Shown: positions 2,846-20,072 of the stretch, one piece after another
Position numbering within the stretch: the first letter of the stretch is position 1
How the letters are laid out: each line of letters opens with the position of its first letter
From: Candidatus Fermentibacterota bacterium
GTDB taxonomy: Bacteria > JAFGKV01
Assembly (NCBI GenBank): GCA_030620115.1
Contig: JAUXFG010000065.1
Span: 1 to 20,072, forward strand
Length of the DNA stretch: 20,072 nt
Reading direction: 5' to 3'
The notes under the pieces: model-generated
Told to the model about the DNA's origin: nothing
Seen by the model: the letters and a program-made list of their open reading frames with translations, nothing else
The model's database searches: none
Position numbers and translations under genes: made by a program

Positions 2846-2863
2846 ATGGAACGTAAACAATGA
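2846..2863 (+). CDS. Possible five-codon leader overlapping the creB start
   Basis: ATG (2846-2848) followed by GAA CGT AAA CAA TGA encodes Met-Glu-Arg-Lys-Gln. Its TGA (2861-2863) overlaps the creB ATG (2860-2862) as ATGA. G-rich sequence (AGGGGG at 2831-2836) lies 9 bases before this ATG, whereas creB itself has only a weak GGA upstream. This would allow translational coupling, but the peptide is too short for coding evidence and may be chance. Confidence 0.25.
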   Translation: MERKQ

Positions 2864-3552
2864 AGAAAATCCTCGTTATCGAAGATGAACCGTCTGTGGT
2901 TGAGAATATCACGTATGCGTTGAGCACAGAGGGTTTCGAGGCCATCTCTTGTTCCACGGGCCGGGAGGGGCTGGCCGTCTTCCGAAGGAGCCCCATTGAT
3001 CTTGTGATTCTTGATATCGGTTTGCCTGATGCAAGTGGTTTCGAGATCTGCAAAGAGATGCGCAGAATCTCGAATGTGCCCATCCTATTCTTGACCGCTC
3101 GCACCAGCGAGATCGACCGCGTCGTGGGGCTCGAGATCGGAGGCGATGATTACGTGGTAAAGCCTTTCAGCCCGCGTGAGCTTACCGCACGAGTCAAGGC
3201 CATTCTCCGTCGCTCTTCTGGTCCGGTCGATCCACCCGGCCCCGATCACGCCAATGACTGTTTTCCATTCAAGATCGATGGCGATCGTTGCACGATCCAC
3301 TTCCTGGGCACTGCCCTCCCGCTGACTCGCTATGAATACAGGCTTCTTGCGGTGCTTGTTCGGCGACCGGGGCGGGTCTACTCCCGGGACATGCTGCTCG
3401 AGCTTGCCTGGGAGGTTCCAGAGGCGAGCATGGACCGCACAATCGATGCGCACATCAAGAGCATCCGTGCAAAACTGCGGAAAGTCAGCGCCGATGTAGA
3501 TCCGATTAAGACACATCGCGGTTTCGGCTACTCGCTCAGGGATGACTGGTGA
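2860..3552 (+). CDS. creB: CreB-type response regulator (OmpR/PhoB family)
   Basis: Cytoplasmic transcription factor activated by phosphotransfer from CreC, encoded next to it. The 230-residue product has a receiver domain (about 1-120) with acidic pair Glu8/Asp9, phosphoacceptor Asp52 in LVILDIGLPD, Thr79 (FLTART) and Lys101 (VVKPFSPREL). A winged-helix domain (about 145-228) contains LTRYEYRLL, RPGRVYSRDML and DAHIKSIRAKLR, ending THRGFGYSL. The stretches RTSEIDRVVGLEIGGDDYVVK and ALPLTRYEY, the terminal Ser-Leu-Arg and the CreC-type partner point to CreB rather than a generic OmpR member. In E. coli CreB binds TTCAC-N6-TTCAC direct repeats and controls creD and metabolic genes. No creA or creD is present here. 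The ribosome-binding site is weak, possibly offset by coupling to the tiny upstream ORF. Confidence 0.93.
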   Translation: MKKILVIEDEPSVVENITYALSTEGFEAISCSTGREGLAVFRRSPIDLVILDIGLPDASGFEICKEMRRISNVPILFLTARTSEIDRVVGLEIGGDDYVVKPFSPRELTARVKAILRRSSGPVDPPGPDHANDCFPFKIDGDRCTIHFLGTALPLTRYEYRLLAVLVRRPGRVYSRDMLLELAWEVPEASMDRTIDAHIKSIRAKLRKVSADVDPIKTHRGFGYSLRDDW

Positions 3553-4985
3553 GAATCAGGACACGTCTTTTCCTCTGCTATTTCATCATTGTGGCCGCGG
3601 GATTCTACTATCTCGTGGACTGGATTCTGGATGATCTCCGGCCTCGCTATCTCGAGTCTGTGGAGGAATCGCTGGTAGACACGGCGAATATTCTCTCTTC
3701 CATATTCACCGATGTTTTGGCTGAAGGAACCGAGCCTGCTGAAGCATTTCGACACACTTTTGAGGATGTGAAGAAGAGGCGGTTTTCCGCTCGCATCTAT
3801 GAATTCGAGAAGACGCATGTTGATCTACGCGTGTACGCTACCGATTCGGAAGGGATTGTTGTCTTTGACTCCGATGATGGACGGGATGAAGGAGCCGACT
3901 ACTCACAATGGAATGACGTCTACCGGACCCTGGCCGGTGAATACGGCGCCAGAGCAACGCGAACGGACCCCGAGGATCCATCAACTACGATTCTCTACGT
4001 GGCGGCGCCCTTGAGATCCGGCGAGAACACGGTTGGGGTTTTGACCGTGTGCAAGCCATTGCTCAGTGGTAATCTTCTCATACGAGGCGCACAACAAAAG
4101 ATCATTATTGTCGGTATCGCCGCGGGGCTGTCCGTACTGCTCCTTGGGTTGGTGACGTCGACATGGATTACACGGCCCATCGAGAAGCTGACACAGTATG
4201 CCATGGCTGTCCGAGACGGAAAGAGAATAGGGCTTCCGGATCTCGGCAACAGCGAGATCGGCGTCATGGGCAAAGCACTTGATGAAATGAGAGAGGCACT
4301 GGAGGGGAAGGAGTACGTCGAGCAGTACATACAGACACTTACTCATGGGCTCAAAGGGCCGCTTTCGGCCATTCGAGGGGCGGTGGAGCTTCTCCAGGAG
4401 GATATGGGGCCCGAGCGACGTGGGCGGTTTTTGAGAAATGTGGAGGTGGAGACAGCACGACTTCAAAGAATCGCCGATCGTCTTCTTCTGCTTGCCTCCC
4501 TTGAGAGCAGAAAGGGGCTTCGAGACGTCGAAGATATTGATCTGGTACGCCTCATCGGCGAATTGATAGAGAGCTCCGCGGTGCATGTTTCTTCGAGGAA
4601 GATCGATCTCACTTCCTCTCCGGAAAAGGCCTACCTTGTTCGCGGCGAACGTTTCCTTCTCTACCACGCCCTCCATAATCTGATTCAGAATGCCACGGAG
4701 TTCACCTCCGAAGAGGGGGCCATTGAGATCGCCATCACGGAATCCGATATGATCGACATTTCAGTCATGGATGACGGCCCGGGCATTCCCGAGTATGCCC
4801 TTGATCGTGTTTTCGAACGTTTCTACTCATTGCAGCGACCCGACACCGGAAGAAAAAGCTCAGGTCTTGGCCTCAGTTTCGCCCGTGAGGTTGCCGAGCT
4901 CCACGGTGGAACCGTCTCGGTACAGAACAGACCGGAAGGAGGCGTAAAGGCCAGTTTTCGCTTGCCTCAGTCCCCTGTCTCATAG
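3549..4985 (+). CDS. creC: CreC-type sensor histidine kinase with altered H-box
   Basis: Inner-membrane sensor kinase partner of CreB. The GTG start at 3549 overlaps the creB stop (GTGA), and the N-terminus MRIRTRLFLCYF matches the CreC pattern; the 478 residues are close to E. coli CreC (about 474). Layout: transmembrane helix about 7-24, periplasmic sensor 25-183 including DYSQWNDVYRTLAGEYGAR, second helix 184-207, HAMP linker 208-262, dimerisation/phosphoacceptor region around His266, then an ATPase domain with the N-box (Asn381), DDGPGIP (408-414), VFERFYSL and SSGLGLSF (about 437-444). The H-box reads His-Gly-Leu-Lys-Gly (266-270) instead of the usual His-Glu-Leu-Lys-Ser. The acidic residue after the His, normally important for catalysis, is therefore missing although the rest of the kinase looks intact. 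It may be catalytically weakened or rewired. Confidence 0.94.
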   Translation: MRIRTRLFLCYFIIVAAGFYYLVDWILDDLRPRYLESVEESLVDTANILSSIFTDVLAEGTEPAEAFRHTFEDVKKRRFSARIYEFEKTHVDLRVYATDSEGIVVFDSDDGRDEGADYSQWNDVYRTLAGEYGARATRTDPEDPSTTILYVAAPLRSGENTVGVLTVCKPLLSGNLLIRGAQQKIIIVGIAAGLSVLLLGLVTSTWITRPIEKLTQYAMAVRDGKRIGLPDLGNSEIGVMGKALDEMREALEGKEYVEQYIQTLTHGLKGPLSAIRGAVELLQEDMGPERRGRFLRNVEVETARLQRIADRLLLLASLESRKGLRDVEDIDLVRLIGELIESSAVHVSSRKIDLTSSPEKAYLVRGERFLLYHALHNLIQNATEFTSEEGAIEIAITESDMIDISVMDDGPGIPEYALDRVFERFYSLQRPDTGRKSSGLGLSFAREVAELHGGTVSVQNRPEGGVKASFRLPQSPVS

Positions 4986-5007
4986 ATATGGTAACATATT
5001 GCTCGCA

Positions 5008-5078
5008 GTCATTGCGAGCCTTAGCAAAGCAATCCGCCAGCTGGCGGACTGCCGCGTCGCTTCACTCCTCGCAGTGAC
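5008..5078. repeat. Hairpin repeat with a CCGCCAGCTGGCGG centre
   Basis: The left arm starts GTCATTGCGAGCC (5008). The right arm (5047-5078) is the reverse complement, with one mismatch, of 32 bases of the GTCACTGCGAGGAG core found at 5240, 6283, 6974 and 8794. A perfect 14-bp palindrome sits at the centre. It starts 23 bases after the creC stop but has no T-run. Confidence 0.75.
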
Positions 5079-5151
5079 TTCATTGCAGCGCCGTGCCTAT
5101 CCGCACGAAGGCCGGCAAAAGAACCGGGTTGGCCTAGCCAAGTGAAGTGTA

Positions 5152-5278
5152 TCAGTGGCGCAGGTCAGTGGCGCAGGCGTCCCTGCCTGCGATGTTATCC
5201 TGCCTGCCCAAGAGCGATGCCTATTGTCACCCAACGATGGTCACTGCGAGGAGCGAAGCGACGCGGCAGTCTCAGCTC
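5152..5278 (+). repeat. Composite dispersed repeat, intact copy
   Basis: It starts with two exact tandem 13-mers TCAGTGGCGCAGG (5152-5177), then a GCAGGC/GCCTGC mini-hairpin and GATGTTATCCTGCC. A linker ending CCCAACGATG follows, then a 34-bp core (5240-5273) starting GTCACTGCGAGGAG and ending GCGGCAGTCTC. The first module recurs at 6713-6766, and the core recurs identically at 6283, 6974 and 8794, always on the plus strand. Confidence 0.8.
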
Positions 5279-5301
5279 TAAGGATGCTGTTACGCTATCG
5301 C

Positions 5302-5329
5302 TTGCCTCTGTCCGCAAATGTGATATACT
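5302..5329 (+). promoter_or_regulatory. Probable promoter of the toxin-antitoxin pair
   Basis: TTGCCT (5302-5307), a 16-base gap, then TATACT (5324-5329) preceded by an extended -10 TGA. Predicted start is near 5336, giving a leader of about 115 bases. A weaker alternative lies nearer the gene: TTGCTC (5390-5395), 17 bases, TATCTT (5413-5418). Confidence 0.45.
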
Positions 5330-5332
5330 CAC

Positions 5333-5352
5333 AGCATTCGGGATAGAATGCT
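5333..5352. promoter_or_regulatory. Possible autoregulatory operator
   Basis: AGCATTC, a 6-base gap (GGGATA), then GAATGCT: a perfect 7-bp inverted repeat over the predicted transcription start of the toxin-antitoxin unit. Antitoxins commonly repress their own promoters at such palindromes. Binding here is inferred. Confidence 0.35.
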
Positions 5353-5449
5353 ATTCGTTAGGCAGTCTTTCGTTCCCGATTAGTTCGTATTGCTCCTGCA
5401 ATCCAAGTCGCGTATCTTAAACTGATGGAGCCACTCACGAGGTGACAAG

Positions 5450-5683
5450 ATGATAGAAAGGATTGTTGTTGATCCCAAGGTTCACTTTGGAAAGCCCTGC
5501 GTCGCAGGCACGCGCATCACAGTGCAAAATGTCCTCGAACTACTTGATGAGGGTCTCCTTTTTGATCAGATTCTCCAAGACTACTATCCTGATCTGACTG
5601 TTGAGGATATCCATGCGTGCATTCAGTATGCGATTGCACTAGTAGCGTCTGAAGATATCCATCTGACAGCGATTCCGGCGTGA
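5450..5683 (+). CDS. DUF433 antitoxin (VapB45-like)
   Basis: Putative antitoxin that neutralises the PIN-fold protein encoded just after it. The 77-residue product carries the full DUF433 pattern: IVVDPKVHFGKPCVAGTRITV (about 5-25), then VLELLDEGLLFDQILQDYYPDLTVEDIHACIQYA, where the GTRI turn and the YP-LT-EDI helix are family hallmarks. The fold resembles a helix-turn-helix, consistent with repression of its own promoter. A good GAGGTGA (5439-5445) lies 4 bases before the ATG. Its stop overlaps the toxin start as GTGA, the usual arrangement for coupled synthesis. It is flanked on both sides by direct composite repeats, suggesting an accessory cassette. Antitoxin function is inferred from family and partner. 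Confidence 0.88.
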   Translation: MIERIVVDPKVHFGKPCVAGTRITVQNVLELLDEGLLFDQILQDYYPDLTVEDIHACIQYAIALVASEDIHLTAIPA

Positions 5684-6042
5684 AGTTTCTACTTGATCAC
5701 GATGTGTACAAAGCCACGGGTCAGTATCTGAGCCGTCTAGGGCATGATGTTGTTCATGTTGCTCAACTCGGCCTATCCAGGGCCAGCGATGAGGAATTGC
5801 TCGAAGTTGCTCAACAGCGAGGCCGACTCTTTGTCACACGTGATCGGGATTTCGGTCGTCTTGTCTTCTTGATGGGACTCAGTTCAGGAGTTCTTTATCT
5901 GCGCATGTTGCCTTCCACACAAAGCTTTGTTCACAACGAACTGAAAGGCGTACTGCGAGTCTACGACGAGGAAGAACTGTCACGGGCATTTGTCGTCATT
6001 GAACCGGGAGGACACAGGATTAGAAGACTTCCGAGGGAGTAA
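5680..6042 (+). CDS. DUF5615 PIN-like toxin (VapC45/Mut7-C type)
   Basis: Putative ribonuclease toxin of a type II toxin-antitoxin pair. The 120-residue product starts at a GTG (5680) overlapping the antitoxin stop by 4 bases; its first residues MKFLLDHDV are the expected N-terminus. Acidic residues typical of the family are visible: Asp6 (and Asp8), the SDEELLEVA helix with Asp37, and the TRDRDF motif with Asp55 and Asp57. The GHDVVHVAQLGLSRASDEE stretch is diagnostic. The length is typical and the active-site residues are intact, so it is probably not a decayed copy. The RNA target cannot be predicted. The C-terminal end (about 105-120) is basic. Confidence 0.88.
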   Translation: MKFLLDHDVYKATGQYLSRLGHDVVHVAQLGLSRASDEELLEVAQQRGRLFVTRDRDFGRLVFLMGLSSGVLYLRMLPSTQSFVHNELKGVLRVYDEEELSRAFVVIEPGGHRIRRLPRE

Positions 6043-6159
6043 GAGACAAGGACTTGATCAGTTCTACCGTTTCCCCCAAGAAGCGATCGATTTCGGTAGG
6101 ATCCTCTTCACCCTTTCGACGTTCATAAGATTTGCGGATTATCGCGTGACCACGTACCA

Positions 6160-6240
6160 TAGGTTGGGTTAGCGCAGCGTAACCCAACAACCCCGCCCGA
6201 ACCATGAATCGTCGGGTTACGTTTTGCTAATCCGACCTAC
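6160..6240. repeat. Large imperfect inverted repeat (TAGGTYGGRTTAGC type)
   Basis: The left arm (6160-6188) starts TAGGTTGGGTTAGC. The reverse complement of the right arm (6211-6240) starts GTAGGTCGGATTAGC. About 23 of 29 positions match. The left arm is itself a hairpin (TTGGGTTA/TAACCCAA). It looks like a solitary non-coding miniature element. Confidence 0.75.
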
Positions 6241-6259
6241 AGCCTAAAGTGCCTAGCCC

Positions 6260-6326
6260 AATCCTATTCTCACCCAGCGATAGTCACTGCGAGGAGCGAA
6301 GCGACGCGGCAGTCTCAGCTCCCGAA
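6260..6326 (+). repeat. Composite repeat copy without the first module
   Basis: Matches 6951-7017 over 67 bases with one mismatch (CAGCG versus CAACG). It includes the 34-bp core (6283-6316). Its left edge reads CCCAATCCTATTCTCACCC uninterrupted, and thus shows the sequence of the site before the nested element at 6776-6950 inserted. Confidence 0.85.
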
Positions 6327-6403
6327 ATACATGCGCTTTCTGCCACAGAAACAGCCGCATTGTCTGCTCTGCCACCCCTCACTCATCAGGAATCGAACCC
6401 ATC

Positions 6404-6443
6404 ATAAATCTCCACTAAATCCATGGATTTAGTGGAGATTTAT
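6404..6443. repeat. Perfect 40-bp palindrome with no spacer
   Basis: The 20-base half 6404-6423 (ATAAATCTCCACTAAATCCA) is exactly complementary to 6424-6443, centred on CCATGG. Symmetry stops abruptly on both sides (C at 6403 and C at 6444). The segment is A/T-rich compared with its surroundings. It could be a protein-binding site, a cruciform-forming element, the relic of a mobile-element end, or an assembly fold-back. Confidence 0.95.
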
Positions 6444-6540
6444 CGCGCCCACAATCTTGGGCCGCAACCAGACCGGACTACTGACCAGAACTCCTTTGCG
6501 AGCTCTGTCGATTCTGATAGAAATCCTCAGCCCTCCCCGT

Positions 6541-6582
6541 TGGACATTGGACATTGGACGTTGGATGTTGGATGTTGGATGT
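6541..6582 (+). repeat. Six tandem 7-bp units (TGGAYRT)
   Basis: TGGACAT twice, TGGACGT once and TGGATGT three times, without gaps. The array changes stepwise from one variant to another. There are no spacers and no cas genes, so it is a microsatellite-like array and not CRISPR. Confidence 0.9.
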
Positions 6583-6712
6583 TCATTCCTTCTCTTCAAT
6601 GCTCGCCCTATCTGACAGTGGGGAAATTCAGTGGCGCCACCCGCCATCCGGGGGGATCCTCCCATCACGAAACTTTGGTATGAATTGAAGAAGTTCGGGA
6701 CGAAGTTCTAGG

Positions 6713-7017
6713 TCAGTGGCGCAGGCCAGTGGCGCAGGCGTCGCTGCCTGCGATGTTATCCTGCCCAATCCTATTGGTAACCGTTCACGGGTTGAAAGGT
6801 TCATAGGTTCAGGGTTCACCGGAGATCTGAACCGTTGATTCGTGGGATCTGAAAGGTCCCGCTTCCAGCGGAAAACTCTGAACCTGTGAACGCCTCCACA
6901 TAGCCCAAGCTGACTTCAGGCAACCCTGAACGCTGAACCCGTGAACGGCTAATCCTATTCTCACCCAACGATAGTCACTGCGAGGAGCGAAGCGACGCGG
7001 CAGTCTCAGCTCCCGAA
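6713..7017 (+). repeat. Composite repeat interrupted by a nested element
   Basis: 6713-6766 repeats the first module of 5152-5209 (two 13-mers, TCAGTGGCGCAGG and CCAGTGGCGCAGG, then the GCAGGC/GCCTGC hairpin). The remainder, from AATCCTATTC through the identical 34-bp core (6974-7007) to CCCGAAA, resumes at 6951. The two parts are separated by the 175-bp element at 6776-6950. Confidence 0.8.
6776..6950. mobile_element. MITE-like 175-bp element with 9-bp target duplication
   Basis: AATCCTATT occurs at 6767-6775 and again at 6951-6959, immediately flanking this segment. The ends carry inverted repeats that share CCGTTCACGGGTT exactly, and further inside TTCAGGGTT. No ORF for a transposase exists, so it would be non-autonomous. 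The related copy at 6260-6326 shows the uninterrupted target. Short TTCA-rich motifs recur inside the element. Confidence 0.7.
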
Positions 7018-7035
7018 ACACCCTGCCTACGCTTC

Positions 7036-7062
7036 TTCATGAATTTTTCACATGTTTTTCAT
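7036..7062 (+). promoter_or_regulatory. Three TTCAY half-sites at 11-bp spacing
   Basis: TTCAT (7036), TTCAC (7047) and TTCAT (7058) are separated by exactly 6 bases. Direct repeats at this spacing are typical of OmpR/PhoB-family binding and resemble the E. coli CreB tag TTCAC-N6-TTCAC. They end 33 bases before a -10-like box that lacks a good -35. Regulation by the CreB encoded at 2860 is inference. Confidence 0.4.
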
Positions 7063-7094
7063 ACACATATCACGCCGTCTTCAAATCCATTGGG

Positions 7095-7100
7095 TATACT
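7095..7100 (+). promoter_or_regulatory. -10-like box before the membrane-protein pair
   Basis: TATACT at 7095-7100 matches the -10 consensus at five of six positions. The -35 position (about 7072-7077, ACGCCG) is poor, as expected for an activator-dependent promoter. Predicted start is near 7107, about 90 bases before the first gene. Confidence 0.35.
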
Positions 7101-7197
7101 CAATTAGAAGGCGCATGCGGCGCAGAGTGAACGGATTACTTCATCCGCCATCTGCGCGTACACGCCTGGTGAAAGACGCGGACCAGGAGAAGACGGC

Positions 7198-8994: not shown

Positions 8995-9022
8995 TTGACC
9001 ACCATGTGAGTGATGGTATTTT
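8995..9022 (+). promoter_or_regulatory. Probable promoter of the two giant exported proteins
   Basis: TTGACC (8995-9000), 16 bases, then TATTTT (9017-9022) preceded by an extended -10 TGG. The start is predicted near 9029, leaving about 50 leader bases before the ATG at 9079. A longer reading frame from 9010 would begin upstream of this start site, which supports the shorter protein. Confidence 0.5.
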
Positions 9023-9078
9023 CGATTTTCAGCCCGGAACGGCTCGTGAATAATCCAACTCTTTCTCGGGGGGACTCT

Positions 9079-12000
9079 ATGACTCACAGGATAATCCACA
9101 TCGCAGTTTTCTTCATGGCGGTATTCGGACAGACGTCCCATGGCCAGCTCGGGGGACCAGGCACAGTATCCGTCTCTGAGGCGACCCTTCCCGCAAAAGG
9201 ACAGAACCACGTGGTCTTCGAAGTGGACCGACCCTGGCGAGTGTCCGCCCAGGTCACGAGTCCTATGGGAACGGCTCTTCGGGTCGTTGACCGTATCGAG
9301 GGGCCCGGCCCCTGGTCAGGAGAGCCGGGTGAGGCCGACGGTCGAGTAGATCTCCTTCTCGATAAGGGCTCGTATAAGGTCGACCTCCATTCACCGGATG
9401 CGGGGACCGATTCACTCTCACTCAAGGTTTTTCCGTTCAAGGAGGTTGGCGAAGAGAGAATCCAGGAACTTGACGGCGGGACAACGCGGTCATCGACCCT
9501 GCAAGATCTGGAGCAGCGCTCCTTCTGGTTCACGGCCGGTAGTGGAGGTTCGGTCCGAATGGAGGCAGCGGGCCGGGCGCTCACTGATCTCAAGATTTGG
9601 AGAGACGGGACCTGGCTCGTGGATATCGAATCAACGGAGCGGATAATCGAGCCGGGCATGGGGAAACCCATGACGAGATTCCTTCTGGCCGGTCGAGTGG
9701 AAGCGGGAGAGTATCTCGTGACGGCGTATGGTGGCGATCCGCTTCCATGGGCCTATGAGCCTGATTCTTCTCCTTTCCATATTCGATTCGGAGTGGAGGA
9801 ACTGCCCGAGTTTTTCTCCTCCCATCGCGCGGCCAGCCCGTTTGGAACCGATTACGTGAGAGTCCCAGGCACGACAAACACGTTCATGCTTTTCCTGGAT
9901 GAGAAGAAGGACTTCGAGCTCAAGGTGGGGCCGTTCAGGAGGGACAGTACCAGAGAGGAATACCAGGCGTGGGGCAGGATCGACAAAGAGTCGGTGGAAC
10001 CGGAGTGCTTAGTGAAGTATCAGGGACAGAGGGAAACACCAAGTCTGGTGGCGGTGACTGGGTCTCCTGGAGAGAAGTACCGAGTACTCGGCCTCAAGGC
10101 GGATCGGTCCAATGTATTCCATTTCTCGCGCCGTGCCGGGGTCACCTACTGGTTCTCCACCCTTCATGCCGGAAGGCTGGTGGATGCCATAGACGCCACC
10201 GGCATCGTGGTGCGAAGCGGGAAGAAAGTGCACAAAGCTATGGTGATTTCGCTGGGCAAAGGGCATGGTTGGAAGAGAACATTCAATCTCCTGGAGAAGA
10301 CGAACCTCTATGTCGAGATCTTGGAGGCGGGACGGTATGAGATCCGTTCCACGGGGGTCAATGTCCGCGTCAAGATGGAGCCGTTTTTCGTAAGCCCTCC
10401 CAAGCATTATCGAACCCCCAAGCTGCAAGAGACACCATCAACCTGGGATCTCGAGAAGGGAATGCACGTGGTGACCTTTGAGCCCATGCTGGAGGGTATG
10501 ATCGAGATCACCATCAGGCACGAAAAAGATGACATTGATGATCTTCTCCTCTCTCCGAAGAGAGTCAGCTTCAATGCCGGTCTCTACACAATGTATCCAG
10601 GGGAACCCAGTTACGCGTTGCATACCAATCGCCAACCAGGTGTGATCAAGGGCCTTTTCAGGAGGGAGTCGCCCGTCGACTTATCGATACCATTCATGTG
10701 CGAGCTATCCTCAGGCGAAGAGATCTCTTTTCCTTTCAAATCCGAATTCGAATGCGTCTTGAGATGCACCGCCGCCAGAGACCGGGAGATAGCGCTCCTT
10801 GTCGATGGGGAGCGAGTGACCCCGGAATCAGCCGTTCCTGCTGGCACGCATACCCTCAAGATGCAAAACCTGAGCGACCGGTATGCGATGGTGACGCTGG
10901 TTGCCGAGCGATACGCCGAGCCATTTGTCGGCCCGCCATGGGAACCTCCTCTGCCGGAACGGCGGGATCAACCTCTGCTAGTGCTCCTGCATGAAGACGA
11001 TCCTTTGTTTTTCGATTTCGAGAAGAACCAAAGCCACAGCGTGCTTCTCCAAGTGGCTTCTCCTGGGTCGTACACCATCGAGAGCCTGGGGCTCTTGAAG
11101 ACGAGATGCAGCCTTCGTACTAGAACAAAAATCGGGCTTCTATCCGACTGCCGTAGTGGGCCGGGGCGGAATTGTCTTCTCTCCTCCTTTCTTGGGGAAG
11201 GGTTATACCTCGTGACTGCCCATGTACAGGATAGGTCGGAAGGGAGAGGGGGCCTTCTGCTTCGTCCTGGCGGAATAATTCTGGGCGATACGCTTCAAAC
11301 CGGGACGAGCCAAGCGGTCCACGTGCCGGCTGGGCAGAGCCTCGTCAACTGGTTCTCAGTCGACACTGCAGGGGTGTACCGGATTGCCACAGTGGGGGAG
11401 TCGCGTCAGTTCCTTGCGCGCTTCGAGGATAGCGATGGGTGGCCCCTAGTCCGCACAGGGAGTCAATCGTCTCTCGATCTGGAGCTCGATCCAGGCACCT
11501 ATTCCATCACAACCTATCCATCAGATGTGGAAGGGTCGAGGATTACTACATTCGATCTCATGAAGAAGTATGTACCGATTCGAGGCAAGGGGCCACATAG
11601 ACTTGCTCTGGGGAAGAAGGAGTGGAACAGATGGATGGAGCCATCTGAAGGAGAGACGAGGAAAAGAGACATCTACCTGTTCGATATGCCTGGGAGCTCA
11701 GAGACAACGATTTCCTTGAGCAGCAGTATGAGAGGCTATCTCTTCAGGGACGACGGTGACAGCGCCATCGTCACGATGCGGAAACGCTGGGAAGGGGAGC
11801 TTGCAACGGGGAGCTACCGGTTGGAGGTTGAGAGCCGAACGGTGAGCAATCTCCAGGAATACACCATCCAGGTGAGCTGCCGCGATCTTGTGGCGGGCAC
11901 TTCCAGGGCAGTGACCGTTCCCGCAGAGCTATCCTTGTCAGTGGGCAAAGAGGGCATGATCGCCATCCGTGCCGCCGGTTCCGATGATGTGAAGGCGACG

Positions 12001-14259
12001 CTCTTCTCTGACGATGGAGCAGTGATTCAAGAGAGTGATGACTGCGTGGCAGACTGGAACTTTCACATCTGCTCCATGCTTGAGGCGGGCGCGTATCGTC
12101 TCAAGGTCGCTCCTGTTGGAAAAGCTACGGGCCGAACCGTAGTATCCATGGAGGCCATGGAGGAGTCGTGGCTCGATACCGTGGTTTTCCCGTCGCTGCT
12201 GGATCTCACGCTGAAGGGCAACGTCATGGTCCTCCCGCTCTCGCTACCGCTGGAGGAACCTCTTCTGGCTGTTCGAATCAAAGGCAGTGATCTCACGGGC
12301 TACTCCCTGCTGGACGTCGGCACTGAAGAGAGTGTTCTCGCCGAAGGACGCGATTTCGAGACCAGACTCCTTGTTTCCAGCCCCCTTTCAAGGCACTGTT
12401 TGCTGCGAGTGTGGTCATGGGGCCAAGGATCTGGGAATGTAAAAGTCGAACTTGGCCTGCCACCAGTGGAAACCGTGGACCTGAGGAAGCTCGAGAAGGG
12501 GGTCAAGATACGACCCATTCGTACGGCAGGGATGTGGTTGGCTCCTCTCCACGTGGAAACAGGGGAGCCTTCCACATATCGGATAGAGACCTCAATGCGA
12601 GGTTCGCTTCTTTACGCGGTACAGCCCGGAACCCGGCTTCAACCGTCCCCTGAAGGCGAGACTGAAGTCAGCTTCTCCGAAGATGGGTTTTTTCTGGCCA
12701 CCGAAACCGCCGGGTCTGGAAAAGTCAGGATCAAGGGAAGGCGACTGGTGCTCGATGAAGGTGAAGGCTGGACCGCTTTGATCAGGGGGAATGAGCCGGT
12801 ATTCCTTGACTTCAAGGAGTTGAAGAATAGGGTCGCCATTGCGGTAGCCCGTTCAAGAGACACGCAACCAGGGGTTTGTTTTTCGGGCAGAGACACTATC
12901 GATAGGATACCCCTCTACCTTGAAGACCAGATCTCGGTGGCCGTGTTTAGGCACGGTAAGAGACCCACTGTCCGGCTCTGGAACGCGAACCGTGTTGAGC
13001 ACAATTCACCCGTGGAAATGACAGTCACACATCACGCAGTGAATCACGACAGCGATCCGCCGGCCTTGGGATTCGGCACACACCAGGGAATTCTGGGGCC
13101 GGGGTTGAGTAGGAACTGGGCGCTTCCATCCGGCCGCAAGCTTGTTCGCATCGGCGGCTCGGCAAGAATTTTGTCCGTCCTCCTGGGGAGCGACACCATG
13201 GAAAGCATGCTATTGTCACCGTCGAGGCCGTCTCACGAGATCAGCACACAGGCGGAGGAGCTCTTGCTCTACTCCTTAGCTGAGGATGGAGAGAGCGCAT
13301 TCTCCGTGGAAATACTTCGCGACCAGGGTGGCGACCCTACAATTCTTGCAGGAAACGGACTGCTTCATGAGGAACTGGCATTTCATCCCGGCACAACATG
13401 GGTTCCGCTCGCAAACCTCCGGCGGGGCACACATCTGAGTACCACGGCAGACGAGCCCAGAAGATGCAGATGGATTGATGGGCAGGGTATCATCAATCCG
13501 GGCTGGGATCATGTGGTGGATAAGCCGGGCGGCTATCTTGAGATAGATCACGGAAGGGGGCTCGTGAAGGCGTGGGCCTGGACCGGTGGCGATAGCCTGG
13601 AGGCTCGGTGGGGCCCGCGCGAGAGCAAAAAGCCCGTTCCAATCTATGAATCATCGGTCCTATCTCTGGAGGGGAACCAAGGCCGATGGGTGTTGTGGGG
13701 AGACGAACCGTTCGCCATCAGTCTCCTGACCGACGGCGGTGTATGTGCCACAGTTCGGCATCAGGGCAAGGTCGTTGCCCTTGGAGAGGGGGGCGATGGG
13801 GTTTCGCTATCGAGATGGTTCCCCGGAGGTGAGTATGAGGTCCTGGTTCGCGGGCTCGGGGGACGACCCCTAGCCGGGAGTCTCATTCTGACCAGGGATC
13901 GGGCCGAGCAGATCGCCGAAGCATTTGGCCCGTGGGTTCTGCTCAAACCGGGTGAGAGCCGGTACTTCTCCTTTTCGGTCAAGGAATCGGGGAAGATTGG
14001 TTTGGGTGTACAAGGCAAGCGAGACGGGGCGAGGTGTGAAATCCTGACTCCTGAAGGAGTGACCTTGGCCGACGGAGTAAGGCTGGTGGAGGAGCTCTCC
14101 AAGGGGAGCTATCTGATCAGGATCTACCTTCCCATGGATGAGGATGTAGTGGCGGCTCGGGCTGTGGTTGCCGGCTTGATCCCACCGGGTACCGGGCCTC
14201 CAGATGAGTATATACGCCGATTGATGTCCAAGGGTGGATTCGTGCAGGAGGGAAGCTGA
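9079..14259 (+). CDS. Giant exported beta-sandwich repeat protein, unknown function
   Basis: A 1726-residue protein. The ATG at 9079 is preferred over an in-frame one at 9010 because a G-rich SD (9067-9073) precedes it, the predicted promoter lies just upstream, and it places a Sec signal peptide (about residues 1-22, hydrophobic core IIHIAVFFMAVFG) at the N-terminus. No Cys lipobox or other membrane anchor is visible, so it is periplasmic or secreted. The body repeats a motif of the form Gly-x-Tyr-hydrophobic-x-hydrophobic at about ten places (near 95, 208, 416, 706, 763, 803, 908, 1001, 1581 and 1673), for example EAGEYLVTAY, DPGTYSITTY, EAGAYRLKV and SKGSYLIRIY. This looks like serial PPC-like or jelly-roll domains; the last one (about 1620-1680, RYFSFSVKESGKIGLGVQ) is the clearest. 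No enzyme motif is seen. One base separates its stop from the alpha-2-macroglobulin gene, so a shared job is very likely. Confidence 0.85.
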   Translation: MTHRIIHIAVFFMAVFGQTSHGQLGGPGTVSVSEATLPAKGQNHVVFEVDRPWRVSAQVTSPMGTALRVVDRIEGPGPWSGEPGEADGRVDLLLDKGSYKVDLHSPDAGTDSLSLKVFPFKEVGEERIQELDGGTTRSSTLQDLEQRSFWFTAGSGGSVRMEAAGRALTDLKIWRDGTWLVDIESTERIIEPGMGKPMTRFLLAGRVEAGEYLVTAYGGDPLPWAYEPDSSPFHIRFGVEELPEFFSSHRAASPFGTDYVRVPGTTNTFMLFLDEKKDFELKVGPFRRDSTREEYQAWGRIDKESVEPECLVKYQGQRETPSLVAVTGSPGEKYRVLGLKADRSNVFHFSRRAGVTYWFSTLHAGRLVDAIDATGIVVRSGKKVHKAMVISLGKGHGWKRTFNLLEKTNLYVEILEAGRYEIRSTGVNVRVKMEPFFVSPPKHYRTPKLQETPSTWDLEKGMHVVTFEPMLEGMIEITIRHEKDDIDDLLLSPKRVSFNAGLYTMYPGEPSYALHTNRQPGVIKGLFRRESPVDLSIPFMCELSSGEEISFPFKSEFECVLRCTAARDREIALLVDGERVTPESAVPAGTHTLKMQNLSDRYAMVTLVAERYAEPFVGPPWEPPLPERRDQPLLVLLHEDDPLFFDFEKNQSHSVLLQVASPGSYTIESLGLLKTRCSLRTRTKIGLLSDCRSGPGRNCLLSSFLGEGLYLVTAHVQDRSEGRGGLLLRPGGIILGDTLQTGTSQAVHVPAGQSLVNWFSVDTAGVYRIATVGESRQFLARFEDSDGWPLVRTGSQSSLDLELDPGTYSITTYPSDVEGSRITTFDLMKKYVPIRGKGPHRLALGKKEWNRWMEPSEGETRKRDIYLFDMPGSSETTISLSSSMRGYLFRDDGDSAIVTMRKRWEGELATGSYRLEVESRTVSNLQEYTIQVSCRDLVAGTSRAVTVPAELSLSVGKEGMIAIRAAGSDDVKATLFSDDGAVIQESDDCVADWNFHICSMLEAGAYRLKVAPVGKATGRTVVSMEAMEESWLDTVVFPSLLDLTLKGNVMVLPLSLPLEEPLLAVRIKGSDLTGYSLLDVGTEESVLAEGRDFETRLLVSSPLSRHCLLRVWSWGQGSGNVKVELGLPPVETVDLRKLEKGVKIRPIRTAGMWLAPLHVETGEPSTYRIETSMRGSLLYAVQPGTRLQPSPEGETEVSFSEDGFFLATETAGSGKVRIKGRRLVLDEGEGWTALIRGNEPVFLDFKELKNRVAIAVARSRDTQPGVCFSGRDTIDRIPLYLEDQISVAVFRHGKRPTVRLWNANRVEHNSPVEMTVTHHAVNHDSDPPALGFGTHQGILGPGLSRNWALPSGRKLVRIGGSARILSVLLGSDTMESMLLSPSRPSHEISTQAEELLLYSLAEDGESAFSVEILRDQGGDPTILAGNGLLHEELAFHPGTTWVPLANLRRGTHLSTTADEPRRCRWIDGQGIINPGWDHVVDKPGGYLEIDHGRGLVKAWAWTGGDSLEARWGPRESKKPVPIYESSVLSLEGNQGRWVLWGDEPFAISLLTDGGVCATVRHQGKVVALGEGGDGVSLSRWFPGGEYEVLVRGLGGRPLAGSLILTRDRAEQIAEAFGPWVLLKPGESRYFSFSVKESGKIGLGVQGKRDGARCEILTPEGVTLADGVRLVEELSKGSYLIRIYLPMDEDVVAARAVVAGLIPPGTGPPDEYIRRLMSKGGFVQEGS

Positions 14260-14260
14260 T

Positions 14261-17200
14261 ATGAAACGGAATGCTTTGTTCGCGCTGTTGACTTTGGCCT
14301 TCTTGTGGTCGTGGAGTGCGGCCAAGGGGCCCGAAATCCTTCCTGAGAATTACCTGCGCGGCTATGATCCTGTCACAATCCTCTTCTCGGATCCCATTGG
14401 CCCTGAAGCAGGAGGTCCTTTGGATAGCCCGGGCGAGTTCCTGCGCGTCAACCCGGAGGTGAAAGGCGAGTTCAGGTTTGTGGATGCGAGGACGATCCAG
14501 TTCCGGCCGGCAGACCCATGGCCGCCATTGGCGCGATACCGATGGGAGGTCGGCAAGAACACGAGGATCCTGCATACCATGATGGTCCCACCCGAGAAGT
14601 TGATCCCTTCTGCAGGAACGAAGAACCTCGAGGAGTTTCGCGAGGTGACACTTCATTTCCGGGATCCCCTAGCCCTGGAAGGCTTGGGCGCCATGGTTTC
14701 GTTCGAAGTGCGCCCGCTGCCCGGCATCGAGAAGAAGGATGCATTCTGGCTCACCGATGCGGATTTTCAGGTCAAGGCCCTGCAAAGAGGCTCTTCAGAG
14801 GAACCGGCTCGGTACCTGGTGACGCTCAACACGCCGGTAGGAGCCGGCCACGCCATTACACTCCACCTGCGGCTTTCGCTGGATGATGAGAGTAGATCAT
14901 CATTCGTTCAGTACACCTTTTTCACTCGGGGTGAGTTCCGGATCGTCAAAGCGGGAGTGGGGAGAACCAACTATCCTATTCCACGTGGTGGCGCATCGTA
15001 TACCAAGGAACAGGCCATTAATGTGCCCGGTGGAGATAGGAGAATCGCCATAGAGTTCAATGCCGAACCCTCTCCCGTGGATATGTCGGTCATCAGTGAG
15101 ATGGTCCGTTTTAGCCCTGCGGTGAAGAAGTTCTCATTTCGGCAAGACGGCCGGCGAATAATACTCTCCGCGGCAGTGGAGGAAGAAACGATCTACAAAG
15201 TCATACTGGCGCCGACCCCGCTGATCACTGATGAAAGCGGGCGGACGCTTCTCGCCGAAGGGACCTCATCTTTTCACTTTTACGTGCCGAAACCGTCTCC
15301 CTATATCCGGTGGAATCAGAGCAAGGGTATCCTGGAGCGTTATGGCCCCCAGGAGCTACCGGTGAGTTCCAGGGGATTCGGGCGAATCGATTTACGCATA
15401 TACAAGATCGATCCATTGGATCGGCGGTTCTGGCCTTTTCCCAGCCAACCACTGGTGGTGGATGAAGACAATCGCCCGCCAGGACCCGGAGAGGAGCCAC
15501 CCGAGCCGGATGAGCTGAGAGGCCGGCTCTCAGCAGGCGTTTTAGAGAAGCATATCCAGCTCCTGGGCGCCCCACTCGTTTCACGAGTTGTCGACCTTCC
15601 TTCATACGGGACACAGCAGGCCCACCGCTATGGTATTCCCCTCCGAGACCACTTCGAGGAAATTTCAGGGCCGGATCAGCCCGGGACCTATCTGGTTGGT
15701 TATCGAAGATTGAACAAAGAGACCACGCGAACCTACGCGAGGGTGCAGGTTACTGATCTCTGCCTTACGACCGTGAAGCGAGCAGACCAGATCTTATTTG
15801 CAGTCACTTCCTTGAAGACTGGAATGCCAGTGAGCGGTGCAATGGTGTGTGTGGAGGGATATGAATGTGGAGGGAGTACTCTTGTGATTCTCCGCAAGGG
15901 AACGACCGATCGCAGCGGCGAAGTCGTTCTGAGGCGGAAGATTGGAAATTGTGGGCACTACTCCAAATGCAGCGTTGTGCGAGTCTACATTCGCAAGGGG
16001 GATGACGCTGTTGTTATCGATCCTTCGGATCCACCGCCGATCTTTGCAGATAACTACTGGTATGGACCAAGAGGCGGATGGCTCCAGAAATTCTGTGGCG
16101 ATTGCACGACTGCCCTTACACCGCTGGAAGTCTGGTCCGCCCATCTGATTACCGAGCGACCCATCTACAGACCGTCGGAGAAAGTCCACATCAAGGGCTA
16201 TGTGCGCGGGGAGCACTATGGCAAGATCAAACGCGTCTCCCCGCACGGGTATACGTTGCATATTGTCGCTCCCGGCGGCAGGACATGGAAGCAGCCCATC
16301 AGACTGACCGAGGCAGGCACCTTCCAGCATGAATTTGCGGCTGATGATATCCCTACGGGCGAGTACCGCGTACATCTGCGCTCGATATCGAGAAGTAGCG
16401 GTATTCGATGGAAAGGAGGCAGCACCTCCTTCAGGATGGAGAACTACCGGGTACCCACCTTCGAGGTGCGGCTACATGGTGATGATATCGTGGCTATGGA
16501 TGATCCGTTCACCGTTACTCTGACCGCTTCCTATTATGCCGGAGGCAGAGTGGGCGACGAGCAGGTCAACTGGCGAGCCACACAGTTCCCTTATGCTTAT
16601 TGTCCAAAGGGGCTCAAAGGCTATCTCTGGAGCTCCACGAGGCGCTACTCCAGGGCAGAAGGCTTTTCGTCGGAGCCCGTGGTTCAGAAGACCGACAGAA
16701 CCGACCAATTAGGTACGTCGCGCCTGGTCATTGATCCGACGCTGGAGGTGGATGGGGGGGCACGGAGATACGTGGTGGAAGGCACGGTCATCGGTGCGGA
16801 CGAGCAGACAGTGACTGCCACCAAGTCGGTGATCGCATTGCCTGCCTTCTCTCTGGGACTCCAGGTTCAGCGATATATCCGGGGAGAGAAGATCATCAGG
16901 CCGAAGATCCTCATCTTGGGAGTAGACGAGAAGCCCCTGGAAGGCAAAGAGGTCACGGTTCGGCTCTTCTCCAGGGAGTGGCATTCACACCTCCAGGAGG
17001 CGGACCTTTTCGAGGGGCGGGCGAAGTACGTGACCGACGAGGTTGATACCGAGATCTGGACGACCACGCTTATGAGCGGTCCAGGGCCGGATAGCCTCGA
17101 GATCCCTGTTGATCGTGCTGGCGTCTACATCATCAAGCTCGAAGCCAGGGACAAACTCGGCAGAGCGCAGGTCGTGTCGGCCGATCTCTATGTTGCAGGG

Positions 17201-20035
17201 GAGGAAGAGCTGGCCTGGGAGAAACCTCGAGGCATGGTTTTCCAGTGCGTGGCCGACAAGGAGCGGTATGATCCTGGAGATACTGCGCGTATTCTGCTGA
17301 AGAGCCCCTTTCAACATGCCAAGGTGTTGGCGGTTGTAGAACATCCAAAGAGAAACGAGTACCACTGGCTCACCGTGCGAGGCGGCAAGGCCGAGTTCAG
17401 TACCGTGCTGTTCAAGGAACACATACCGAAACTGCCCGTTCATTTCCTCCTCATGCGAGGGCGGGGAGAGTGGCGCGAGACAGAGGAGAAACGTCACGAT
17501 CTGACGAATCCCACATCGTTGGGGAGCACGGTCTGGCTGCCTGTCACCTCTAAAGAGAACCAGATAGTGGTTACCCTTGACCATCCTACGAGAGCGCTCC
17601 CCCGGGATACGGTTGAGGTTATCATAAGGCTGGCAACGCCGGACGGGACACCACTTCCAGGCGAAGTCACATTGTGGCTGGTGGATCAGGCAGTCCTGGC
17701 ACTTGGTGAGGAAAAGCCCCTGGATCCTCTCCCCACGTTTCTACCGAAGGCTCGATCGAATATCAGGATCGCCGACACGAGGAACAGAGCGGTGGGTCTT
17801 GTGCCTGTGGTGGAAGAGCCGGGCGGAGGCGGTGCCGCGAGGGAGCGGGCGCCGGAACTGTTAGACAAAGTTACCGTCCGCAAGAAGATCGTGCCGGTGC
17901 CCTATTACAATCCACGGATTTTGGTGTCGGAGGATGGTATTGCCACGGTATCCGTTGAGCTTCCAGACAACGTCACTAATTTCAAGATACGGGCTGTGGC
18001 ATGTTCAGGGCCTTCCAGATTCGGCATCGCGAAGTCCATGCTCGCTGTTCGGTTGCCTATGGTCGTGCAGGGGGCCTTGCCTCGGTTTGTGCGGCCTGGA
18101 GATAGTTTTCGAGCAGGTGGCATCGGCAGAGTCGTAGAAGGTGCCGGTGGGCCGGGCTGGTGCAAGATCGAGGTGGACGGTCTTTCTGTTGAAGGCGAGA
18201 CCGTGAGAAAGATCAACTGGGCGCCGGGGCGTGCAGAGAAGTTGTTCTTCCCAATCAAGGTGGAAGTGCCGGACTGGGACGAGGTGGAGGGGAAGAATGT
18301 GGAGGTCACGCTTTCGATTCTTCGAGATTCAGACGGCGCCGGTGACGCGCTGAAGCTCCAGCTTCCTGTGAAGAAAGATCGACGTCGTGTGCGATTTGAA
18401 AAGCTGGCAGCAGTTGCCACCGGCGATGAGGTGCCGTTTCCTGAATTGGAGGAAGCGCCCAGAGATGGTACTGTCTTTCAGAGCATTGTGATGACCAGCG
18501 AAGAGGCAGTGCTCTACATGGCGGCGGCACTGGACTATCTCATGCGTTATCCCCACGGCTGTACCGAGCAGGTGGTGAGCCAGGCGTATCCCCTTGTGGC
18601 CATGAAGGATCTTCTTGAGCCGCTAAGCATGAGGTCGGCGATGCCTGCGGTAGCCACACGGTTCGAAGATGCGATACGCTACCTGAAGCGAACTCAGAAA
18701 TCCTCCGGATTGTACTCCTATTGGCCAGGGTCTTCCCATACCTATGTGTACCTGACTGCCTATGTCGTCGAGTTCCTGGTGGAGGCCAGGCAAGCTGGTT
18801 TTGAGTTCCCGGATCGTCTCTTGACACGGGCAGTTGCGGCGCTTCAACGGGCACTTCGATCCGACTACAGCGGATTTGTGAGTGGTTGGCGCTATGTGGA
18901 GCGGGCGGATGCGCTCTACGCCTTATCACGGGCGAATCATTTCGAAGAGTCCTACGGCATAGAACTGCTGCGCAAGAACCAGTACATGGATGCCTACGGG
19001 AGAGCCCGGGTGGCAATGGCGCTGGTTTTCGCTGATCGCACCGGCCTGGCGGTCAATCTGGAGCAGCCTCTGTGGGATGAGGTGGTATTGAGGCTTCGGA
19101 GCGGAAGAGAGGTTTTTTCAGGGCTCCAGGAGCAGAAGCGTGGCTACTCGTGGGGAGGAGTCATCAACAGTTCGGAGATCAGGTCCACGGCCTGGCTGCT
19201 CCGTGCCCTGGCGAAACTGAACCCAACTGAACAAAGGCTAGATCTCTTGGTGCGTGGTCTGGTGGACATGGGTGACAGATTCGGGTGGGGCAATACATGG
19301 AACAATGCGTCGTGCATGATAACTCTGGCAGAGTTCTTAGGGAGAGAAGACAATCGCCCCGAGGATTTGGTGTTTGAAACGAAGTTCGCCTCTGCCCGCC
19401 ATGAGCTTGTCTTGCCCAAGGGAAAGATCGCAGCATCGGATTCCTTTGATGCCGAGACAAACGGTGCTATCACCCTGATTTCCGGCACGCCTGATACGTC
19501 GGTGGTAGCCAGGATGACGCTGTCATACGTGCCCAGAGCTCCTGGTGACAGTGTAGCGGCTGGGGTGAAGGGTTTCGTAGTCTCGAGAGAGCTCTCCCTG
19601 GTTCCCGAAGGAAAGGCGCCACAGTCAAGGACGTGGATTGATTCGCCCGGCCAACCGCTTGAGTACGGGATAGGCGATGTAATCGAGGAGCACATCAGAG
19701 TGGTGAATCCCGAGGAGCGTCATTTTGTGGCAATCATGGCCCCCTTTGCCGCGGGTTTCGAACCACTGAATCCTGAACTGGCCATCTCAGGCCCCGAGGC
19801 CACCCCATCCAAGCCGAACACAATAGAGCCCTCGTACAGTATGTTCGAGGATGACCAGGCCGGATTCTATTTCGAAACTATGCCCAAAGGCACACACGAT
19901 TTCTATTTCAGACTGAGAGCCACCTTCGAGGGCTCCTTCGTGCACCCCGCCGCCTGGGCCGAAATGATGTACAAGGAAACCACCCGAGGAAATTCCCCCG
20001 GCTCCAGGATGATGATTGTTCAGAGGGAGGAGTAG
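14261..20035 (+). CDS. Bacterial alpha-2-macroglobulin with intact thioester
   Basis: An exported protease trap: cleavage of a bait segment by an invading protease exposes a thioester that links to it covalently. ATG 14261 has AGGAGGG (14246-14252) at 8 bases and gives a signal peptide (about 1-20, no lipobox Cys), so it is chosen over an upstream GTG at 14234. The length of 1924 residues exceeds E. coli YfhM (about 1650). Domains: N-terminal Ig-like/MG region (about 24-350), a Cys-rich MG-like insert (about 510-620), the ERPIYRPSEKVHIKGYVRG signature (632-650), MG domains up to TLWLVDQAVLAL, a Gly/Arg-rich bait-like linker (about 1150-1210), and the A2M domain (YYNPRILVSEDGIATVSVELPDN, about 1210-1235). 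The thioester domain has YPHGCTEQ (Cys1434, Glu1436, Gln1437), and the last domain ends PAAWAEMMYKETTRGNS. It is co-translated with the preceding gene; no pbpC follows within the window. Confidence 0.95.
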   Translation: MKRNALFALLTLAFLWSWSAAKGPEILPENYLRGYDPVTILFSDPIGPEAGGPLDSPGEFLRVNPEVKGEFRFVDARTIQFRPADPWPPLARYRWEVGKNTRILHTMMVPPEKLIPSAGTKNLEEFREVTLHFRDPLALEGLGAMVSFEVRPLPGIEKKDAFWLTDADFQVKALQRGSSEEPARYLVTLNTPVGAGHAITLHLRLSLDDESRSSFVQYTFFTRGEFRIVKAGVGRTNYPIPRGGASYTKEQAINVPGGDRRIAIEFNAEPSPVDMSVISEMVRFSPAVKKFSFRQDGRRIILSAAVEEETIYKVILAPTPLITDESGRTLLAEGTSSFHFYVPKPSPYIRWNQSKGILERYGPQELPVSSRGFGRIDLRIYKIDPLDRRFWPFPSQPLVVDEDNRPPGPGEEPPEPDELRGRLSAGVLEKHIQLLGAPLVSRVVDLPSYGTQQAHRYGIPLRDHFEEISGPDQPGTYLVGYRRLNKETTRTYARVQVTDLCLTTVKRADQILFAVTSLKTGMPVSGAMVCVEGYECGGSTLVILRKGTTDRSGEVVLRRKIGNCGHYSKCSVVRVYIRKGDDAVVIDPSDPPPIFADNYWYGPRGGWLQKFCGDCTTALTPLEVWSAHLITERPIYRPSEKVHIKGYVRGEHYGKIKRVSPHGYTLHIVAPGGRTWKQPIRLTEAGTFQHEFAADDIPTGEYRVHLRSISRSSGIRWKGGSTSFRMENYRVPTFEVRLHGDDIVAMDDPFTVTLTASYYAGGRVGDEQVNWRATQFPYAYCPKGLKGYLWSSTRRYSRAEGFSSEPVVQKTDRTDQLGTSRLVIDPTLEVDGGARRYVVEGTVIGADEQTVTATKSVIALPAFSLGLQVQRYIRGEKIIRPKILILGVDEKPLEGKEVTVRLFSREWHSHLQEADLFEGRAKYVTDEVDTEIWTTTLMSGPGPDSLEIPVDRAGVYIIKLEARDKLGRAQVVSADLYVAGEEELAWEKPRGMVFQCVADKERYDPGDTARILLKSPFQHAKVLAVVEHPKRNEYHWLTVRGGKAEFSTVLFKEHIPKLPVHFLLMRGRGEWRETEEKRHDLTNPTSLGSTVWLPVTSKENQIVVTLDHPTRALPRDTVEVIIRLATPDGTPLPGEVTLWLVDQAVLALGEEKPLDPLPTFLPKARSNIRIADTRNRAVGLVPVVEEPGGGGAARERAPELLDKVTVRKKIVPVPYYNPRILVSEDGIATVSVELPDNVTNFKIRAVACSGPSRFGIAKSMLAVRLPMVVQGALPRFVRPGDSFRAGGIGRVVEGAGGPGWCKIEVDGLSVEGETVRKINWAPGRAEKLFFPIKVEVPDWDEVEGKNVEVTLSILRDSDGAGDALKLQLPVKKDRRRVRFEKLAAVATGDEVPFPELEEAPRDGTVFQSIVMTSEEAVLYMAAALDYLMRYPHGCTEQVVSQAYPLVAMKDLLEPLSMRSAMPAVATRFEDAIRYLKRTQKSSGLYSYWPGSSHTYVYLTAYVVEFLVEARQAGFEFPDRLLTRAVAALQRALRSDYSGFVSGWRYVERADALYALSRANHFEESYGIELLRKNQYMDAYGRARVAMALVFADRTGLAVNLEQPLWDEVVLRLRSGREVFSGLQEQKRGYSWGGVINSSEIRSTAWLLRALAKLNPTEQRLDLLVRGLVDMGDRFGWGNTWNNASCMITLAEFLGREDNRPEDLVFETKFASARHELVLPKGKIAASDSFDAETNGAITLISGTPDTSVVARMTLSYVPRAPGDSVAAGVKGFVVSRELSLVPEGKAPQSRTWIDSPGQPLEYGIGDVIEEHIRVVNPEERHFVAIMAPFAAGFEPLNPELAISGPEATPSKPNTIEPSYSMFEDDQAGFYFETMPKGTHDFYFRLRATFEGSFVHPAAWAEMMYKETTRGNSPGSRMMIVQREE

Positions 20036-20072
20036 TGGTCAACCATCCTTCCCTCCCAAACTTCGTCTCGAA

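Follow-up and report, generated by a model that had tools for sequence, protein, structure and literature searches.

A gene for a very large, predicted all-beta protein extends the bacterial alpha-2-macroglobulin-PBP1C pair in one macroglobulin clade

The DNA analyzed here, a stretch of 20,072 nucleotides from a Candidatus Fermentibacterota assembly that is referred to below as the window, carries two adjacent genes for very large exported proteins on its forward strand. The first, named X in this work and the first gene of the cassette described below, extends over 9079..14259 (ATG at 9079, TGA at 14257-14259) and encodes 1,726 amino acids. The second, at 14261..20035 (ATG at 14261, TAG at 20033-20035), encodes a thioester alpha-2-macroglobulin (A2M) of 1,924 amino acids that belongs to the X-linked clade delineated below. 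A single base, 14260, separates the two genes, and a Shine-Dalgarno-like AGGAGGG for the A2M gene (14246..14252, forward strand) is located within the last codons of X. Coordinates and sequence thus confirm the original prediction of two exported proteins encoded one base apart, with the ribosome-binding site of the second inside the first gene. GC content at the three codon positions is alike in both frames (0.61/0.47/0.64 and 0.61/0.45/0.64). Both N termini have the look of Sec-type signal peptides, as judged by eye and with a simple hydropathy script, and inspection of these N termini revealed no lipobox in either protein. Two sigma-70-like sites upstream of X (8995-9022 and 9026-9054), against 0.5 expected, lend weak support to the promoter that the two genes had been proposed to share. 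The region further upstream of the cassette (2860-4985) encodes a response regulator along with a sensor kinase that weakly matches dCache; it is followed by approximately 2.2 kb without an open frame of more than 120 amino acids (4990-7190). Scanning the whole window for Rfam families and tRNAs gave no matches, in this stretch or elsewhere.

Searches with the window X returned nothing in Pfam at an E value below 0.1, no match in NCBIfam and, by sequence against the PDB, only two chance-level matches (E values of 0.34 and 0.8). These family searches gave no enzyme match, in agreement with the earlier statement that X bears no enzyme signature. Two AlphaFold2 models, which cover residues 24-1040 and 936-1726 and draw on 27 homologues, were nearly all beta and had a mean pLDDT of 87. 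Six domains, all encoded on the forward strand, were found to be connected by profile self-comparison. The N-terminal beta-sandwich domain (residues 30-122; 9166..9444) aligned to the domain 733-835 (hhalign, 93%), and a domain with the PPC fold (residues 630-732; 10966..11274) aligned to the domain 938-1036 (hhalign, 97.5%). The latter PPC-fold domain matched the ColG collagen-binding domain 1nqj in VIA-align with a Z score of 13.1 and 2.0 A over 92 residues, the match spanning X residues 634-730 approximately. Next are the PPC-like domains 733-835 (11275..11583; hhalign, 96.6% to 1604-1705 and 96.1% to 938-1036) and 836-936 (11584..11886; hhalign, 91.9% to 938-1036), of which the second superposed on E. 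coli PliG 4dxz (Z score of 9.8, 2.7 A, 93 residues). The homologue alignment placed the most conserved motif of X, DVxAxL..SDD...DWN....L.PGxYxLxVxPVG, in the PPC-like domain 938-1036 (11890..12186), for which model residues 1-91 matched the ColG collagen-binding domain 2o8o in VIA-align with a Z score of 11.7. The C-terminal PPC-fold domain (residues 1604-1705; 13888..14193), recognized by VIA-align, matched both 1nqj (Z score of 12.3, 22% identity) and Aeromonas PliG 4dzg (Z score of 11.8), and showed weak sequence matches to collagenase collagen-binding domains in a PDB profile search (E values of 0.02-0.05).

X is hence predicted to be an all-beta string that includes several PPC-fold domains. 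The serial PPC-like domains proposed originally are backed by the predicted fold, by the self-comparison and, weakly, by Pfam PPC (PF04151) matches in 3 of the 27 homologues at an E value of 0.01 or better; in the window X no PF04151 match rose above the cut-off. Several X domains share the fold of the PPC proteins, such as the collagen-binding domains of collagenases, at Z scores of 12-13, but X differs from these proteins in that it is very long and peptidase-free, and most members, including that of the window, fall below the Pfam model. The other domains of X are beta-rich; VIA-align reached little of the middle and N-terminal ones, and we therefore do not propose a new fold for them. Foldseek matches of the whole model to complement C5, A2Ms and toxin subunits had TM-scores of mostly 0.05-0.2 and were set aside, because long strings of beta-sandwiches yield such matches.

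The assignment of the second gene to the A2Ms is solid by sequence. Pfam domains bMG10 (5.9e-23), the bait-region domain (2.5e-14), MG2 (4.4e-14) and A2M (1.4e-10) all exceed their curated cut-offs, and translation and motif search located a CTEQ thioester motif at residues 1434-1437 (YPHGCTEQ; 18560..18571, forward strand; numbering from the alignment). Among 42 A2Ms placed in a tree by a quick method with SH-aLRT support only, and with a long-branch warning for the A2Ms that are not X-linked, all 26 X-linked proteins formed one clade with full support. The remaining 16 A2Ms have no adjacent X and include those of the E. coli type, some with a pbpC gene of their own. Many genomes with X possess further A2Ms of other clades, which no X adjoins. 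The genome of the window is one example: a second, very different A2M of 2,045 amino acids with CTEQ and the lipobox LAIGC is encoded on another contig (L008, G000:C215, 219-6356), and no X was found beside it. X and the X-linked A2Ms have signal peptides without a lipobox. Most X-linked A2Ms contain the CxEQ motif; in four of them (L052, L054, L075 and L081) GGVEQ, GGAEQ or GGTEQ replaces GCTEQ, and in that of L043 no thioester motif was found, X being kept in all five cases. This loss of the thioester cysteine in some members parallels the type II A2Ms.

A first scan of 98 genomes yielded one X homologue, in a genome of another lineage (G079), with 28% identity over the best stretch, located directly before an A2M gene that is followed by pbpC. 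X was also present in 4 of 7 further genomes of the same phylum, with an A2M adjoining wherever the contig permits. A five-protein X alignment was then used as the sole query against one genome per species (84,980 species), which resulted in 36 loci from at least seven phyla. Their labels comprise Alpha- and Gammaproteobacteria, Magnetococcales, Desulfuromonadales and Desulfobacteraceae, as well as Acidobacteria, Elusimicrobia, Schekmanbacteria, CSSED10-310 and Spirochaetales. Identity between X and its relatives is approximately 25-30%, while the gene order persists. In each of the 34 distinct loci whose sequence extends past X, tblastn and frame analysis placed an A2M gene directly 3' of X on the same strand. 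This is a hand count of loci in which X has an intact 3' end and the contig continues past it; it adds the window, L075 and three Rhizobium plasmids and leaves out duplicates and truncated loci. The expectation that X is a dedicated A2M partner gene, found beside A2Ms in unrelated genomes, is therefore borne out with a query that contained X only. The opposite finding, homologues located mostly far from A2M genes, is not upheld, since every distinct homologue with continuing sequence precedes an A2M. Pairwise distances of X and A2M were correlated (r of 0.94, 22 loci, with a contribution of shared species history), which fits the expectation for a unit that is inherited together.

The dependence between the two genes goes in one direction. 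In 200 Acetobacteraceae genomes that were not picked for adjacency, X was found in 8 and A2M in 103, so that X implies an A2M of the X-linked type, whereas an A2M does not imply X. In this family, every X gene that is intact or nearly so has the bMG10 domain of a same-strand A2M at a distance of approximately 7-8 kb, the spacing that adjacency of the two genes demands. One genome (G234) contained only a frame-broken X, and its single detected A2M was on a different contig.

At the 3' side, the cassette usually continues. A PBP1C-type gene was third in 23 of the 27 loci with enough room, and many junctions are short gaps or 4-base overlaps. It was absent from the third place at L021, L032, L043 and L050; three of these four genomes have a protein with a BiPBP_C domain elsewhere. 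At the window locus the contig stops 37 bases past the A2M stop codon, so the usual third gene is out of view; a possible GTG start of a further gene overlaps this stop codon (20035..20072, forward strand), a candidate read from the sequence only and truncated by the end of the contig. The assembly to which the window belongs yielded no PBP1C: the search for BiPBP_C gave no match, and the only Transgly matches were proteins of the PBP1A and MtgA types. On the 5' side, each upstream gene family was seen in two of the 29 loci at most. The same three-gene block is present on plasmids of Rhizobium sp. CIAT894, R. acidisoli and Rhizobium sp. NZLR1, with unrelated flanks. There, X is annotated as "hypothetical protein" or "lysozyme inhibitor LprI family protein", followed by an "MG2 domain-containing protein" and a "transglycosylase domain-containing protein". 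The starts of two Rhizobium X genes (L089, 12043; L090, 11986) look too late, as a signal peptide and an LprI domain are encoded in frame upstream.

The pair of A2M and PBP1C was reportedly proposed as a periplasmic defence about two decades ago, and the observation of A2M next to pbpC is said to come from Budd et al. 2004. Since most relatives of X run on into pbpC, the X cassette is to be seen as an extended variant of this pair. Of the original proposal of an undescribed system, the extra partner gene, X, stands and the free-standing new system does not. No description of X was found in the open-access literature, to the extent that this was covered. In the type I pair, exemplified by YfhM/PbpC of E. 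coli and the A2M of Salmonella, a thioester A2M with a bait region likewise precedes a PBP1C-type gene. However, the X-linked A2Ms form a separate clade that is preceded by an additional giant gene, and they lack the lipobox, in contrast to YfhM with its lipoprotein annotation. The A2M of the window matched YfhM-type A2Ms in the PDB only distantly (E value of 1.5e-17), in contrast to 1e-180 for the YfhM-type A2M encoded in an X genome. Another arrangement in which an A2M is accompanied by partner proteins, among them the stabilizing MagB, is that of the type II A2M MagD of Pseudomonas aeruginosa. The mag operon has six genes, and MagD is devoid of CxEQ (PMC5764988). The X cassette consists of X and A2M, usually with pbpC, and most of its A2Ms keep CxEQ.

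The only clue to the function of X comes from a domain fusion. LprI was named for lysozyme inhibition in M. tuberculosis, and PliG is a periplasmic inhibitor of g-type lysozyme. X proteins of several Alphaproteobacteria carry an N-terminal LprI-type domain (L033, L048, L050, L051, L054 and L057), as do the frame-broken X of L042 and the three Rhizobium plasmid proteins. The Pfam LprI family (PF07007) matched four aligned X members and the CIAT894 protein, with a best E value of 4.4e-10, and the remaining cases were recognized by motif or visual match. In contrast to these alphaproteobacterial proteins, the window X has no Pfam match to PF07007, and no MliC match was found in X. The Salmonella protein ScwA, which has an LprI domain and no MliC domain, does not inhibit lysozyme and affects cell-wall homeostasis, showing that LprI alone need not inhibit lysozyme (PMC7933661). 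The safe reading of the fusion, judging from sequence, is that it links X to peptidoglycan. Such a link is in line with the PBP1C gene of the cassette and with the proposal in the literature that protection and repair of the periplasm are a joint task of A2M and PBP1C (PMC5764988, PMC3328433). The likeness to PliG, a single-domain protein that superposes on two X domains, appears to be confined to the fold, and PPC folds occur widely; PDB profile searches with two PPC-like X domains gave no match to PliG by sequence.

Given these links, our favored reading, to which we assign about an even chance, is that X is a periplasmic, wall-facing partner of A2M and PBP1C that acts as a scaffold, as an inhibitor of wall enzymes or as both in a three-gene envelope-defence cassette. 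This reading builds on the pairing of the genes, the limits of the cassette, the link to a single A2M clade, the LprI fusion and the fold as predicted; that X is periplasmic, touches its partners, acts as a scaffold or against muramidases and shares a role in defence is what we infer from them. A2M would covalently trap proteases that cross a damaged outer membrane, and PBP1C, anchored in the inner membrane, would rebuild peptidoglycan. X, as a long string of beta-sandwiches, may face the cell wall and keep the lipid-free A2M close to the wall and to PBP1C, and/or may bind and block peptidoglycan-cleaving enzymes such as lysozyme-like muramidases. Trapping of proteases would in this way go hand in hand with protection and repair of the wall. 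Counted against this reading are the restriction of LprI to some alphaproteobacterial X proteins, the failure of ScwA to inhibit lysozyme, the limitation of the PliG likeness to a widespread fold, the lack of a detected PBP1C in the window's assembly and the four loci where pbpC is not third.

The main rival holds that X is purely a structural scaffold or stabilizer of the X-linked A2M clade, with PPC domains serving as protein-protein adhesive modules and with no activity against wall enzymes. This is possible, although we consider it on the unlikely side. It would account for the presence of X beside A2M at the four loci without pbpC in third place, and MagB, which stabilizes and localizes MagD, offers a precedent (PMC5764988). 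However, no membrane anchor was detected in X, unlike MagB, and the LprI fusion suggests more than a passive role. The distance correlation over 16 loci is higher for X and A2M (0.96) than for X and pbpC (0.91), as a scaffold would lead one to expect, but both values are confounded by common species history. It appears improbable that X is a surface tether, as had been suggested, that holds the protease trap outside the cell and binds extracellular substrates through its PPC domains in the manner of collagenases. The fold shared with collagen-binding domains and the missing lipid anchor of A2M would fit such a role, but X has no lipobox, a sorting domain for the cell wall or the outer membrane is not consistently present, and the only candidate for a surface-anchoring feature was one weak match to a T9SS tail in 1 of 27 homologues. 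Furthermore, the enzyme encoded by the usual third gene synthesizes wall material in the periplasm, and the LprI fusion points to periplasmic peptidoglycan or lysozyme biology. That X is a mere genetic companion, co-inherited as a block with A2M and pbpC in the absence of a joint function, is very improbable: the block does move as a unit on plasmids and adjacency by itself is no proof of function, but an order conserved over at least seven phyla at such low identity, with tight junctions and varying upstream genes, is hard to explain otherwise.

The regular position of X in front of one A2M branch and, usually, of PBP1C in at least seven phyla suggests that a component of envelope defence in bacteria has been overlooked. 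X is a further gene that accompanies every A2M of one clade, travels with the pair on Rhizobium plasmids and in some cases bears LprI, and it provides a direct handle on what A2M and PBP1C do together. A likely context is also gained for a family of giant proteins that often carry the annotation "hypothetical". A bolder version, which we regard as rather doubtful, is that X belongs to an undescribed, horizontally mobile envelope immune module in which X would counter wall-cutting enzymes, A2M would counter proteases and PBP1C would carry out repair. If true, a combined "protease plus lysozyme" defence would have been kept over at least seven bacterial phyla.

Two single loci deserve mention. 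One Acetobacteraceae genome (G159) possesses two X-A2M cassettes, at C4:117967-120945 and C12:84378-87368. The cassette of a genome labelled Mycobacterium sp. KBS0706 (L044) is near-identical to that of Inquilinus limosus, and its Mycobacterium label is for this reason probably wrong.
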